From Bacteroidaceae bacterium (GTDB lineage Bacteria; Bacteroidota; Bacteroidia; Bacteroidales; Bacteroidaceae), in contig JAILBW010000229.1 of assembly GCA_024680695.1 (NCBI GenBank), forward strand, positions 1 to 55,097: a DNA stretch of 55,097 nucleotides, in the 5' to 3' direction. The translations under genes and the position numbers were made by a program. Below are positions 40,609 to 49,488 of this stretch, one piece after another (position 1 is the first letter of the stretch; the number at the start of each line of letters is the position of its first letter). A model generated the notes under the pieces. That model saw only the letters and a list, made by a program, of their open reading frames with translations, ran no database searches and was not told the DNA's origin.

Positions 40609-40640
40609 TTTGCGTTTTCGCTCACTTATTCGTACCTTTG
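40609..40640 (+). promoter_or_regulatory. Distal promoter unit upstream of gpmI
   Basis: TTTG (40609-40612), 20-base spacer CGTTTTCGCTCACTTATTCG, TACCTTTG (40633-40640). The same unit is repeated at 40683-40714. Confidence 0.7.
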
Positions 40641-43568: not shown

Positions 43569-43572
43569 GGAA

Positions 43573-43604
43573 TTTGGTGTTTACCTCACTTATCCGTACC
43601 TTTG
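43573..43604 (+). promoter_or_regulatory. Distal promoter unit upstream of the calpain-like gene
   Basis: TTTG (43573-43576), 20 bases, TACCTTTG (43597-43604), same CTCACTTATCCG spacer ending as the proximal unit. Confidence 0.6.
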
Positions 43605-43704
43605 ACTCCGTCGGAAGTACTCTCGTTCGGAAGTTCGAGAAGAAAATCGTCTTTTCTTTTTGCACTTCGCTCGCTTATCCGTGCCTCTGACCTATGGTCG
43701 AAGC

Positions 43705-43767
43705 GTACTCTCGTTCGGAAAACTGCAAATAAATTTGCGTTTTCGCTCACTTATCCGTACCTTTGCA
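43705..43767 (+). repeat. 63-bp promoter block with palindrome, calpain copy
   Basis: Differs from 40654-40716 at a single base (ATCCG for ATTCG). Contains the promoter TTTG (43734-43737), 20 bases, TACCTTTG (43758-43765), and the 27-bp palindrome at 43718-43744. Upstream are TTTGACTCCGTCGGAAGTAC and a hairpin AGAAAA-TCGTC-TTTTCT (43641-43657). Confidence 0.9.
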
Positions 43768-43816: not shown

Positions 43817-45301
43817 ATGAGAAGAAAACTACTCGCCAGCATTGCCCTGATGGCAATCTGCATCATCCGGCTGAATGCCCAGGGCATTGTCATTCACCAA
43901 ACCGACGGCAACGTCTATGTATTCCCCTCGGCTAAGGTGGAAAGCATCACCACAGTCACTGAGGAGAACACCTACATCTTCGGCACTTGGTATCTGGGCT
44001 TCTACAAGAACGGCTCGAGCGTCATCCACTACGAAGGCACGGAGTACCTCACCTTTGCCGGCTCGGAGCTCTTCTGGGGCAAGGCAGACGGAAAGGTGGG
44101 CACCTACTCGCTGCGCTTCTTCCCGAAGAACAACTACTTCATGGCACTGGGACGCAACGGCACTTCGGGCACGCTGCGATGGAGCGTTACGAGAAACACT
44201 GAGGATATGCTCATCCTTCAGGACGGTACCATCTATCGCTACTTCTACCCCACCAAGGAGGCTGCAGCGAATGCCATGTTTGAGCTCGACCCGCCCTCGC
44301 ACAAGGAGACCACGAGCATCACCACCATATTAAAATACGCGTCGGGCAAGTCGAACTCGACCATAACGCCGATGGGCAAACATTTCGAGGGCAAGCACCA
44401 GACAACCGAGAGCGACCGCACCTGGCTGGCAAACGCAGCCAACGAACCCGACAAAGTGGCCGGCCTAACGCAATGGGTGGCCAAGACCGTGAAGCTGTAC
44501 CCATACACGAATCCAGTGCCCGCGGACGTGAACCAACACGCCATCGGCGACTGCTGTGCCTGCGCCGTATTCGCCTCGATGGCCTACCTGTACCCCGACT
44601 ATATCAAGCAGATTATCAAGAACAACGGGAACAACAGCTACACCGTCACGATGTACGACCCGCAAGGAAATCCCGTGGACGTTTGTGTGTCGAACAAGAT
44701 TCTCTGCGACGGCAACGGCAACATCGGCCAGGTCACCGGAAAGAACAATGCCGTGACATGGGCCACGATACTGGAGAAGGCGATGATGAAGTACATGACC
44801 ATCTACAAAACCAACGGCATCGAAGGCATCGGCACAGAACATGTAGCGCCCCTCTTCACGGGATGCGGCGACAGCTTTGCCTTCTCGCCCAATTCGCTCT
44901 ACACCTCCGAACTGAAGCTCGCCATCGAATACTGCCTCGCACAGGGCAAGATTTGCGTGGGCGGATTCAACGTGGGCGACATCCCATGCGGCGTACTGAA
45001 GACTGTCACCGGACACGCTTTCACCTTCATGCTCTCGACGAAAGAGAGCTCCATCTTCGCCATGCGCAATCCTTGGGGCATCGAATCGGTGGACGGCCTG
45101 CTAGAAATTCCCGACGTGCGCACCACGGTGCAGACCATCGATGCCCGCATCGTCGATCCCGGTGCTGCAGCACCTTACCTGCGTGCCGACCTGTCGCCCT
45201 ACACGCCGCCCGCATTCATCCGCCGTCCGACCGACCTTGGCGTATCGCCGCGACTGCTGAACCGAGTGTTTAACGAATCGAACAAAGACGAATTATGGTA
45301 A
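43817..45301 (+). CDS. Secreted calpain-like (C2) cysteine protease
   Basis: 494 residues with a signal peptide (MRRKLLASIALMAICIIRLN). Residues about 23-45 (GIVIHQTDGNVYVFPSAKVE) are the N-terminal motif common on secreted Bacteroidetes proteins. The protease domain fits the calpain pattern: Gln/Cys region QHAIGDCCACAVFASMAYLY (compare GxLGDCW; Cys at about 247), His in VTGHAFTFML (about 401), Asn in AMRNPWGIE (about 418). Tpr of Porphyromonas gingivalis is a known Bacteroidetes relative of this class. The last four codons overlap a small secreted protein gene by seven bases (ATGGTAA). Substrate unknown; exported by signal peptide. Confidence 0.85.
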   Translation: MRRKLLASIALMAICIIRLNAQGIVIHQTDGNVYVFPSAKVESITTVTEENTYIFGTWYLGFYKNGSSVIHYEGTEYLTFAGSELFWGKADGKVGTYSLRFFPKNNYFMALGRNGTSGTLRWSVTRNTEDMLILQDGTIYRYFYPTKEAAANAMFELDPPSHKETTSITTILKYASGKSNSTITPMGKHFEGKHQTTESDRTWLANAANEPDKVAGLTQWVAKTVKLYPYTNPVPADVNQHAIGDCCACAVFASMAYLYPDYIKQIIKNNGNNSYTVTMYDPQGNPVDVCVSNKILCDGNGNIGQVTGKNNAVTWATILEKAMMKYMTIYKTNGIEGIGTEHVAPLFTGCGDSFAFSPNSLYTSELKLAIEYCLAQGKICVGGFNVGDIPCGVLKTVTGHAFTFMLSTKESSIFAMRNPWGIESVDGLLEIPDVRTTVQTIDARIVDPGAAAPYLRADLSPYTPPAFIRRPTDLGVSPRLLNRVFNESNKDELW

Positions 45302-45708
45302 GACATATTTTCACCGCTCTCCTGCTGTGCCTTTGCACGATGGCCAAGGCGCAGCAGCAGCTGAACCTCTACACGACTACCCAGGGCGTGCTCACCTTCA
45401 GCTTTGCCGACGATCCCAAGGTCACCTTTCCCACGAGCGAGACTCTGGCAGTGACCAGCGCAACGCTCAGCGTCGAGTTTCCCTTCAGCGAGATAGAGAA
45501 GATGACGCTCGAGGATGGCGTAACACCCGTGGAACAGCTCACGGCAAGCGAGAACGAGGGTGGCATCACCATCTACGACCTCGGAGGTCGCCAAGTGCTG
45601 CAGATCGCTCCCCGTCGGGGTGGCACTCGCGTGGATTTCTCGACACTCCCCGTCGGCACATACATTGTGAAGGACGGACATCGCTCATACAAGATAATGA
45701 GGAGGTAG
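45295..45708 (+). CDS. Small secreted protein overlapping the calpain gene, possible partner or inhibitor
   Basis: 137 residues, signal peptide MVRHIFTALLLCLCTMAKAQ. The middle reads LNLYTTTQGVLTFSFADDPK and FPFSEIEKMTLEDG, the same kind of N-terminal domain as in the protease. The C-terminus GITIYDLGGRQVLQI...LPVGTYIVKDGHRSYKIMRR resembles the Bacteroidetes secretion/sorting tail. Start ATG 45295 lies within the end of the protease gene, so translation is coupled. Secreted cysteine proteases are sometimes encoded with a dedicated small inhibitor (staphopain/staphostatin, SpeB/Spi); that role here is inference. An alternative is that it carries a sorting tail for a complex with the protease, which itself lacks one. 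Confidence 0.75.
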   Translation: MVRHIFTALLLCLCTMAKAQQQLNLYTTTQGVLTFSFADDPKVTFPTSETLAVTSATLSVEFPFSEIEKMTLEDGVTPVEQLTASENEGGITIYDLGGRQVLQIAPRRGGTRVDFSTLPVGTYIVKDGHRSYKIMRR

Positions 45709-45712
45709 GACG

Positions 45713-46336
45713 ATGCGCGTACTATTGATCAACGGAAGTGCCCGTCGCAACGGGAATACGTTTCTGGCACTGAGCGAGGTGGCAAAGACACTGGGCCGAC
45801 ACGGCATCGAGACGGAGATCATCCAGATAGGCACCAAAGCCGTCCGCGGTTGCGTTGCCTGCAACCTGTGCAAGACCAAGCAGCTGAGCCATTGCATTTT
45901 CGACGACGACATCTGCAACATAGTGGTCGAGAAACTGGCAGCAGCCGATGCGCTTGTAGTAGGTTCGCCCGTCTATTACGGACAGCCCAACGGCACCGTA
46001 CTTTCACTCATTCAGCGCGTATTCTACTCGAACCCCAAGGGAGCACAGAACAAGCCCGCCGCAGCCGTTGCAGTGTGTCGGCGTGGCGGCGGCTCAGCCG
46101 TGTTCCAGACACTGACTATGCCGTTCCAGATGATGAACATGCCCGTAGTGACATCTCAGTACTGGAACATGGTCTATGGACGCGAGGAGGGGCAGGCGGC
46201 ACTCGACACCGAGGGCATGCAGACAATGCGCACGCTGGCCAACAACATGGCCTGGCTGCTCAGGAAGATTCATGCCGACGGCCAACCCGACTATCCCGAA
46301 CGCGAGGAGTGGCAGCCGATGAACTTTATCCGCTAA
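45713..46336 (+). CDS. NADPH-dependent FMN reductase / flavodoxin-like oxidoreductase
   Basis: 207 residues, cytoplasmic. Flavodoxin fold: FMN phosphate loop LLINGSARRNGNT (residues 4-16), CVACNLCKTKQ (Cys cluster, about 46-56), DALVVGSPVYYGQPNGTVLS, and CRRGGGSAVFQTL. The Cys pattern recalls iron-sulfur flavoproteins, but a full cluster-binding set is not evident. It starts four bases after the small secreted protein gene, so it is in the same operon as the calpain-like protease. The link between a reductase and an exported thiol protease is unexplained. Confidence 0.85.
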   Translation: MRVLLINGSARRNGNTFLALSEVAKTLGRHGIETEIIQIGTKAVRGCVACNLCKTKQLSHCIFDDDICNIVVEKLAAADALVVGSPVYYGQPNGTVLSLIQRVFYSNPKGAQNKPAAAVAVCRRGGGSAVFQTLTMPFQMMNMPVVTSQYWNMVYGREEGQAALDTEGMQTMRTLANNMAWLLRKIHADGQPDYPEREEWQPMNFIR

Positions 46337-46683: not shown

Positions 46684-49488
46684 TTACTTCACCACAACCT
46701 TGCGTCCGTTCACGATGTAGAGACCCTTCTGAGTCTTCTCTACGCGGCGACCGCTGAGGTTATAAACAGTTCCTTCGCTTGCGGAGAAGGCCGGAGCGAG
46801 GCTTTCAATGCCTGTAGCATTACCGAAAGTATAGACCTTCACCGTCGGCTCGGGAATCTCCAGATAAGCCTTGTATTCGGCAATCTGAGTGCCAGCCTCG
46901 GCCTTGAAGAATCCCACAACGCCATCCTTCTCGGCCAGTACATACTGCGTGCCGGTGGCCTCAACAGCCTGAAGGATTCCCTTCAGTTCGTTCGAAGAGT
47001 CGCTGTTGCCTGCATTCTCCACGGGCTTCAGCTCGTAAACGCCGGCAGCGCCCTTCAGGATGACACCGACCTTGGCGGGCACATTACCCTCGACAGCCGT
47101 CAGCTTCACGCTGTTGTTTTCCACCTTGCCGGTATAAGCCTCAACGCCCTCGGGCAGAGCCACATTGGCAGGACTGAAGAAGGTGGCATAGCCTGCGTTG
47201 CCGATTTTCACGGGGAATGTGAATTCCATTGCGCCCAGTTCCTTTACCTGCTTCTCGGTCAGCGAGGTGTTCCATACACGGAGCTCGGCAATGTCCACAA
47301 CGCCCTCTTCGCCATCCTCGTCGGCAAAGAAATAAGCCACATCATGGAGCGTCCAACGGTCGCTGGGCGTGTAGGTGATGCTAATCCGTTCACCGTCGAT
47401 ATAGGTGGCCATGCAATTGTCGGAAACCGAGAATACGATGCGATGCCAGATGCCCTGCACTACTTGGCCGCCATAGCCCAAGCCGCTAAGATTGATGCCC
47501 AGCTTGCTCGACTTGTTCAGGAAGAGGTCGGCATCGCTTTGGTTCGTGGCGTCACTCTGGAAGAGTGCATTGTACACCGACACATTCTTGGGCCGGATGT
47601 CCATCAGCACGGCGAAGGAGTTCTGGTCGCCGCCTTGGTTGTGAGCCAGCTTCAGATAGGTATCCTTGGGCACGGTCACAGCACCGTTGCTTGCTGAGGG
47701 ACCCACTGCGAGTACAATTCCTGCGGCAGCAATATCGCTGGCGGGCTCAGGTCCCTCGGCTCCCTTGACAGCTGCGGTCCGAGCGGCTGTACCAGTACCG
47801 GCCAGCAGGTTGGCAGCATCGTCGAAGGTCCAGACGCCGATGGGGTCGGCAAGGGGTTCTTCGGCAGCCGTCTGCTTCACGGCACCGAGAAGCGTCACGA
47901 GCTCATTAGTCAGGGGCACATCCCAGAAACGAATCTCAGCCACCGAGTTGTAGCCATCCTCGTCGTCGTTGTCGGCAAAGAAGAGTGCTTCGGGCTTCAG
48001 AGTCCACAGGGCGTTGGGCGATGCACTGCTGCCCACCGATTCTCCGTCCAGATAGGTGAATGCAAAGCCATCCTTGACCACGAAGACAATGCGGTGCCAG
48101 GTATTCTCCTGCATGCTGCCCTTATAGCCCAGTCCGCTGTTGTTGAGTCCGATTGCGCCGTTCTTGATGAAGAAGCTGCCGTCCGCCTGGTTCGTCGGGT
48201 CAGTCTGGAAGAGTGCGTGGTATCCACCCAGCGTCGTGGGCTTCACGTCAAGCATGATCGTGTAGTTCTTTGTCTCGGGAACCCCTAGGTTGGTGGTCAA
48301 CTGGAGGTAAGCCTCGACGGGCATGCCTACGGCACCGTTCTTCTCCGTAGGTCCGTCGACAGGAACGATTCCAGCCGTTACGGCATCAACTGTAATTTCG
48401 GGACCTTGTGCTCCCTTTTTGGCTGCCTTCAGCGTGGCCGTACCAGTGCCAGCCAGCAGGTCGGCGGCATTGTCAAACGTCCAGCAGCCAGCAGCCTCGG
48501 GCACATCGTTGCCCATGAACACCTGTGTTACCGGCACCTCGACAGCCTCGAGGCTGCCACCCTTCACAATGATGGAGCCGCTGCGACTGCCTGCCTCGGT
48601 CATCTCCTTGAAACGGAAGGCGTAGTCCTTCTCGCCCGAGAACGGAGTCACATCCACTGCCTCGACCCATTCGGGCAGAGTGAACGTCACGTTTGTGTTC
48701 GTATTCACGGTCACGATAAAGTCCAGCTCGTTGAACTTCTTGACGGACTCGGTGGTGACGGTCATATATTCGTCACGATCGATACCACCCACGGCTGCAA
48801 TCTGCTCCTCGGTGAGCGCCGACTCCCAGAAAGCCACTTCGGCTACGTAAGTGTCGTTAGCCTCGCCGTCCTCGTCGCAGAAGAGATAGAAACCCCACGG
48901 GTCGATCTCCCAGCAGCCCTGACGGCTGGTGCTGGTGCTCAGCAGCTTGCCATCTACGTACACGCTGAATGCGCCATCGCGGTTGATGAGCATAACGCGG
49001 TACCAAGTGTCATCGAGAATGGTGCCGTTGTATCCCAAGCCGCCCGTCCGGATACCAATCTGGTGGTCGTTGATGAAGATGTCTCCGTCGTTGGTGTTCG
49101 ACTTATTCGTCTGGAAGAGGCCATCATAGACGCTGGCATCATTCACCTTGATGTCCATCATGATGGTGTAGTTCTCCGTGGCAGCCTCGGCATTGCGAGC
49201 CACCATCAATGCCGAATTCTTGGGCACAAAGATTGCCTTGTTCTTGGACAGAGGTCCATCCGTGGCGTAGATGCTTGCCTCGTTGAGCGTCTCCACAAGG
49301 GTGATGCTCTTTTTTCCGATTGTGGCAGGAGTAAGGGTCAGGCTACCCTCGGAGGTTGCCAGCAGGTTTTCGACATTGTCGAATGTCCAACGGCCAGCTG
49401 CCTCGGGCACCTTCTCGGCCCGTGCCACTGTACTCGTTCCCAGCATGCATGCCAATGCTGCAAGAATTAGTGTAAAGCTCTTTTTCAT
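46684..49488 (-). CDS. Large secreted protein of LamG and BACON-like modules, no catalytic domain seen
   Basis: 934 residues, signal peptide MKKSFTLILAALACMLGTST. Three LamG/concanavalin-like modules, each opening with a RWTFDNVENLLAT / CWTFDNAADLLAGTG / VWTFDDAANLLAGTG pattern and containing YTIMMDIKV.., WYRVMLINRDG.FSVYVDGK. A BACON-like domain (ELDFIVTVNTNTNVTFTLPE) lies between the first two. The C-terminal 150 residues form a beta-rich domain (GNAGYATFFSPANVALPEGV) and end in YNLSGRRVEKTQKGLYIVNG then RKVVVK. Modules match those of the phosphoesterase at 37065. Probably surface-exposed and glycan-binding; no enzyme motif found. Confidence 0.82.
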   Translation of the reverse strand: MKKSFTLILAALACMLGTSTVARAEKVPEAAGRWTFDNVENLLATSEGSLTLTPATIGKKSITLVETLNEASIYATDGPLSKNKAIFVPKNSALMVARNAEAATENYTIMMDIKVNDASVYDGLFQTNKSNTNDGDIFINDHQIGIRTGGLGYNGTILDDTWYRVMLINRDGAFSVYVDGKLLSTSTSRQGCWEIDPWGFYLFCDEDGEANDTYVAEVAFWESALTEEQIAAVGGIDRDEYMTVTTESVKKFNELDFIVTVNTNTNVTFTLPEWVEAVDVTPFSGEKDYAFRFKEMTEAGSRSGSIIVKGGSLEAVEVPVTQVFMGNDVPEAAGCWTFDNAADLLAGTGTATLKAAKKGAQGPEITVDAVTAGIVPVDGPTEKNGAVGMPVEAYLQLTTNLGVPETKNYTIMLDVKPTTLGGYHALFQTDPTNQADGSFFIKNGAIGLNNSGLGYKGSMQENTWHRIVFVVKDGFAFTYLDGESVGSSASPNALWTLKPEALFFADNDDEDGYNSVAEIRFWDVPLTNELVTLLGAVKQTAAEEPLADPIGVWTFDDAANLLAGTGTAARTAAVKGAEGPEPASDIAAAGIVLAVGPSASNGAVTVPKDTYLKLAHNQGGDQNSFAVLMDIRPKNVSVYNALFQSDATNQSDADLFLNKSSKLGINLSGLGYGGQVVQGIWHRIVFSVSDNCMATYIDGERISITYTPSDRWTLHDVAYFFADEDGEEGVVDIAELRVWNTSLTEKQVKELGAMEFTFPVKIGNAGYATFFSPANVALPEGVEAYTGKVENNSVKLTAVEGNVPAKVGVILKGAAGVYELKPVENAGNSDSSNELKGILQAVEATGTQYVLAEKDGVVGFFKAEAGTQIAEYKAYLEIPEPTVKVYTFGNATGIESLAPAFSASEGTVYNLSGRRVEKTQKGLYIVNGRKVVVK

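Follow-up and report, generated by a model that had tools for sequence, protein, structure and literature searches.

A secreted calpain-like protease gene overlapping the gene of a small tail-bearing protein: a candidate split T9SS cargo in Bacteroidaceae

Why should the gene of a secreted protease without a T9SS tail overlap that of a small secreted protein that has one? The question is raised by a locus in a 55,097-nt stretch of a Bacteroidaceae genome (contig JAILBW010000229.1 of assembly GCA_024680695.1), referred to here as the window. A preliminary description had noted the overlap, the signal peptide and Cys/His/Asn set of the protease, and a sorting-like tail on the small protein that the protease lacks, and had proposed that the small protein is either an inhibitor or a tail donor. 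These observations are all borne out, and comparative genomics supports the second proposal: the partners of the small-protein family are diverse and tailless, the family is found in T9SS genomes apart from two incomplete metagenome-assembled genomes (MAGs), and pairs contain no lipid anchor or fused tail. The source genome measures 3.16 Mb and is 83% complete, its nearest matches being rumen Bacteroidaceae/Prevotellaceae MAGs; much of the comparative data likewise derives from MAGs.

The two overlapping genes

The features of the locus are listed below; signal peptides were judged throughout by eye or by hydrophobicity.

43817-45301, + strand: secreted calpain-like (C2) protease gene, 494 aa (ORF; Pfam PF00648, 9.7e-9; calpain-core fold match)
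43817-43879, + strand: predicted Sec/SPI signal peptide of the protease, residues 1-21, cleavage between LNA and Q (by eye)
43880-43957, + strand: N-terminal protease module with the sequence QGIVIHQTDGNVYVFPSAKVESITTV, akin to the small-family N-domain (HMM E 0.003; hhalign P 5.9e-6, prob 85%)
43979-44251, + strand: lipocalin-like beta domain, about residues 55-145, between N-terminal module and protease core (AlphaFold2 and Foldseek)
44513-45088, + strand: calpain catalytic core, residues 233-424 (Pfam match)
44552-44554, 45014-45016 and 45068-45070, + strand: catalytic residues C246, H400 and N418 (invariant in 36 homologues)
45295-45301, + strand: ATGGTAA overlap of protease stop and small-gene start (overlap in 21/25 loci)
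45295-45708, + strand: gene of the small secreted T9SS-tail protein, 137 aa (ORF; TIGR04183; AlphaFold2 pLDDT 84)
45295-45351, + strand: predicted signal peptide of the small protein, residues 1-19, cleavage between AKA and QQQ (read from sequence)
45352-45522, + strand: six-stranded N-domain of the small protein, at about residues 20-76 (model secondary structure; profile; common to partner N-termini)
45526-45705, + strand: T9SS type-A C-terminal domain (CTD) of the small protein, about residues 78-137 (TIGR04183; RgpB CTD-like fold)

Judged by sequence and by predicted structure, the 494-aa protein is a true member of the C2 (calpain) family. The Peptidase_C2 match scores 35.1 bits against a Pfam cut-off of 23.8, the catalytic residues and Q240 are unchanged across 36 homologues, and calpain cores are the top PDB matches (calpain-1 core, E 1.5e-9) of an AlphaFold2 model with a mean pLDDT of 90 and low confidence at the C-terminal residues 487-494. 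The Gln at +1 after the predicted cleavage site fits the Bacteroidetes Q-rule (PMC5837995). Two parts of the protease were absent from the preliminary description, namely the N-terminal module and the lipocalin-like domain. The latter, with bounds taken from strands 56-144 of the model, is predicted with a pLDDT of about 94, and its best Foldseek likeness is to 4qrl (BACUNI_01346, E 7e-4, TMt 0.68). The only biochemically studied bacterial C2 calpain is Tpr of Porphyromonas gingivalis (PMC4631099); Tpr, likened here by description, and other bacterial C2 calpains share with the window protease the Cys/His/Asn core and the nature of a secreted Bacteroidales protein, whereas the lipocalin-like domain, the N-terminal module and the T9SS-tail partner are additions of the window protease.

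The tail of the small protein matches TIGR04183 at 26.9 bits, above the cut-off of 23, and Pfam Por_Secre_tail (PF18962) at 21.6 bits, under that model's own cut-off of 27. TIGR04183 found no match in the protease, which by this test has no T9SS tail of its own. Within the CTD, motif B is represented by Gly98, motif D by L118/G121/Y123 and motif E by K133; among 87 members of the small family G98 and K133 are invariant and L118, G121 and Y123 occur in at least 90%, and the motif residues agree with CTD descriptions from Prevotella intermedia (PMC11969387). The tail folds like CTDs of the RgpB/NucA type, with 5ag8 (RgpB CTD, E 0.023) as the top PDB match followed by 7pq4, 5hfs and 8glk, all with weak E-values, and Foldseek with the N-domain gave weak beta-propeller-like matches only. 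PDB sequence searches with the protease and the small protein as queries yielded nothing useful. Genes for SprA (2661 bits) and PorU (1028 bits, cut-off 420) are present in the source genome. The small protein thus shows the sequence-level attributes of a T9SS type-A cargo, namely TIGR04183, motifs B, D and E, the CTD fold and T9SS genes in the same genome.

The closest known counterparts are the 'short CTD' type-A cargo of P. intermedia (PMC11969387), which likewise combine a signal peptide with motifs B (Gly), D (GxY) and E (basic). With about 60 residues, the tail is longer than the short CTD class (about 40-55) and shorter than the long one (69-82) reported in PMC11969387. Known type-A cargo carry tail and functional part in one chain; in the window pair the two are divided between a tail protein with hardly any cargo and a separate, tailless enzyme. 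An NADPH-dependent FMN reductase gene (45713-46336) begins 4 nt past the small gene and may be part of one operon with it; in locus L094 a similar reductase is found 150 nt upstream of a small gene.

Small genes and their partners across genomes

The small gene directly follows the protease gene in 25/25 orthologous loci (protease identity at least 57%), with one count per contig to allow for overlap between the two genome collections. The 7-nt ATGGTAA overlap is used in 21 of these loci; the other four have a gap of 23-48 nt, and two of them retain the ATGGTAA string with the small gene starting further downstream. Conservation of the pair, which had been put forward as a check, therefore holds among close orthologues and fails beyond them: five SPI-type proteases of the same genus (L010, L012, L013, L014 and L016; 40-50% identity) have no adjacent small gene on either side, their N-termini aligning with the N-module, and more distant calpain homologues are mostly lipoprotein-type and unpaired. 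Pairing is, judged by gene order, a stable trait of one protease clade and not of all relatives; obligatory pairing is ruled out by the same-genus proteases. A close relative (G010, L062 3144-5882) has a second small-protein/partner pair directly upstream of the calpain pair.

When 301 genomes of the taxonomic family, among them the source genome of the window, were searched with the small protein, 118 gave matches. The resulting family, with an N-domain of about 55 aa followed by a T9SS tail, occurs in T9SS-bearing Bacteroidaceae; 73/77 members pass a hydrophobicity test for a signal peptide and 82/87 match TIGR04183, a count that selection by similarity favours. Gene context was examined for 77 small genes. 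A co-directional secreted gene starts between -12 and +30 nt downstream of 57 of them, at exactly -4 nt in 35 cases, compared with 51/194 and 3/194, respectively, for other secreted genes in the same loci (p 1e-12 and p 3e-19). Two further small genes have their partner upstream at 11-12 nt, the gene order of the window, and 20/77 have no close secreted downstream neighbour.

None of the 59 complete partners carries a TIGR04183 tail (0/59). Their families, which are non-independent draws, include Cthe_2159 carbohydrate-binding proteins (24), FISUMP proteins (7), C10 peptidases with LRR (5), GDSL lipases (3), C39-like (3) and SusD-like proteins (3), pectate lyases (2), fasciclin proteins (2), GH26 (1) and others. 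Protease families are thus represented by the window calpain, five C10 and up to three C39-like proteins, and most other partners are not proteases. In many Cthe_2159-paired sets (L084, L088, L105, L117, L132, L133, L137 and similar loci) a third gene lies upstream, so that sets of three genes recur; its product, of about 280-300 aa, resembles an outer-membrane barrel. At L087 several FISUMP-like proteins with N-modules surround one small gene, and one tail protein might serve several partners.

The association was also approached from the partner side, using the 30 best Cthe_2159 proteins picked regardless of small genes. SPI-type proteins were paired in 22/24 cases (17 at -4 nt) and lipoproteins in 0/6 (p 5e-5), and none of these best 30 had a tail of its own (0/30). 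Among C10 proteases, 18 complete proteins with their own fused tail had no adjacent small gene of the family (0/18), and the five C10-LRR partners of small genes are without a tail. The 28 FISUMP proteins drawn from the partner side were all lipoproteins and none was paired; they form a negative group and are no test of pairing. In these sequence sets a lipid anchor, a fused tail and a small tail partner look like mutual alternatives. Interpain/streptopain-type C10 enzymes are, like the window protease, cysteine proteases secreted by these bacteria, and some C10-LRR members are paired with the small family; the difference is that most complete C10 proteins examined have their own fused tail.

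Distribution of the family follows that of T9SS genes. SprA is present in 115 of the 118 genomes with small-protein matches and PorU in the other 3. The N-domain profile occurs in 181/301 genomes, of which 175 have SprA and 4 more have PorU; the remaining two are incomplete MAGs (77% and 63%) with neither SprA nor PorU above cut-off. The profile is missing in 62/68 SprA-negative genomes (Fisher p 1e-23, uncorrected for relatedness), a co-occurrence that is partly phylogeny because SprA-positive genomes are related.

A tail lent in trans and its alternatives

The small proteins and their partners have a domain in common. At E<=0.1, an HMM of the small-protein N-domain matched 22/60 partner N-termini, including that of the window protease, and none of about 150 controls from which small proteins, partners and calpains had been left out. 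Profile comparison (hhalign) of the small N-domain with partner N-termini gave P 9e-11 and prob 97% over 52 columns, and the 25 calpain orthologues matched over 24 columns, the window protease having only the first half of the module; eight random control sets all stayed below 1%. Because this N-domain is common to both, the small protein is in effect a partner minus its functional middle, plus a T9SS tail.

We consider it somewhat probable that the pair is a split T9SS cargo module in which the small protein acts as tail donor for the tailless protease. Both proteins would cross the inner membrane by Sec, and the small protein would bind the protease in the periplasm through the related N-terminal modules. 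Recognition of its CTD by the T9SS (PorV/SprA) would then take the protease through the outer membrane as well, or would keep it on the cell surface after PorU has processed the small protein. Synthesis of the two proteins may be matched by the overlap, or in other loci by the 4-nt coupling. Binding, passage as a complex, anchoring and stoichiometry are steps that we infer from gene order and domain content. The tail-donor reading explains pairing, missing tails, the common N-domain, restriction to T9SS genomes and mutual exclusion. Counting against it are the unpaired same-genus proteases, the partnerless small genes, the half module of the window protease, and the precedent of the small CTD proteins PorA and Fjoh_0547, which get outside without the T9SS translocon (PMC7712824). 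The wider proposal, that Bacteroidaceae have a widespread split T9SS system in which adaptors made of N-domain and CTD lend a tail in trans to tailless proteins bearing the N-domain, usually with one adaptor per linked partner gene, seems to us evenly balanced on the genomic data.

Partnerless small genes, together with the several module-bearing secreted proteins around one small gene at L087, would also suit an account in which the two proteins are co-expressed and separate. The small protein would then be an ordinary surface T9SS cargo (e.g. an adhesin or matrix protein) and the partner would be periplasmic or take another exit route, with no complex formed. We regard this as improbable though credible, since it leaves unexplained the common N-domain, the tailless partners and the lack of lipid anchors and fused tails in pairs.

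Assembly at the surface, where the N-domains would meet outside or at the outer membrane and the small protein would be an anchor or docking base only, draws on the same genomic evidence as the tail-donor reading and on the covalent surface anchoring to which type-A tails lead in P. gingivalis and P. intermedia (PMC11969387). It is a rather remote prospect in our estimation, because the partner would need another way across the outer membrane and the sequences show no such route.

Staphostatins are cytosolic and protease-specific, and the staphopain gene is followed by the small gene in the same operon. The order of the window, a cysteine protease gene and then an overlapping small gene of inhibitor-suited size, recalls this arrangement and had suggested an inhibitor; a folding chaperone of the protease may be considered alongside. 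Such a role is now very improbable. The small protein is secreted and bears a tail, where a staphostatin-type protein would be cytosolic without secretion signals, and the family, rather than being paired only with cysteine proteases, adjoins carbohydrate-binding proteins, lipases, pectate lyases, FISUMP and fasciclin proteins. A secretion tail is also unexpected on a protective inhibitor, and the nearest same-genus proteases manage without the small gene. From these sequence comparisons a protease-specific inhibitor role appears unlikely, and inhibition was dropped as the main reading because the family stands mainly beside non-protease partners.

There is, finally, only a slender chance that the small protein is exported independently of the T9SS translocon and acts as a signal or sensor in the manner of PorA of P. 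gingivalis: PorA (246 aa) and Fjoh_0547 (112 aa) are likewise small and recognisable mainly by a T9SS CTD, are exported without Sov/SprA and, in the case of PorA, affect PorXY-SigP signalling, but PorA homologues are reported from Porphyromonas only, PMC7712824 describes no tailless partner gene for either protein, and no regulatory gene stands out near the small-family loci.

Implications and other features of the window

In the open-licence literature searched, T9SS cargo always has its own C-terminal signal, cargo lists are built from tail searches, and no account of a T9SS tail provided in trans came to light. The patterns described above suggest that lending an export tag to another protein would be an unreported route. 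If tails are lent in this way, the inventory of surface or secreted proteins in rumen and other Prevotella-like bacteria would grow by proteases, lipases, pectate lyases, GH26 enzymes and carbohydrate-binding proteins that are at present omitted, and the small proteins could be used to attach enzymes to the cell surface.

Two further features of the window were observed. A 20-nt motif, CTYACTTATYCGTACCTTTG, has 8 copies in the window compared with 0.01 expected, at 43571-43604, 43656-43689 and 43732-43765 and also at 40621, 40695, 51353(-), 51412 and 51497. Two to three tandem copies about 75-90 nt apart occupy gaps before genes, the protease gene included, and the TAnnTTTG that ends the motif resembles the Bacteroidetes -7 promoter element. 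On the reverse strand, 46684-49488 encodes a protein of 934 aa that has three laminin-G-like domains and carries a short tail of another kind, YNLSGRRVEKTQKGLYIVNGRKVVVK, which matches the T9SS tail model only weakly.
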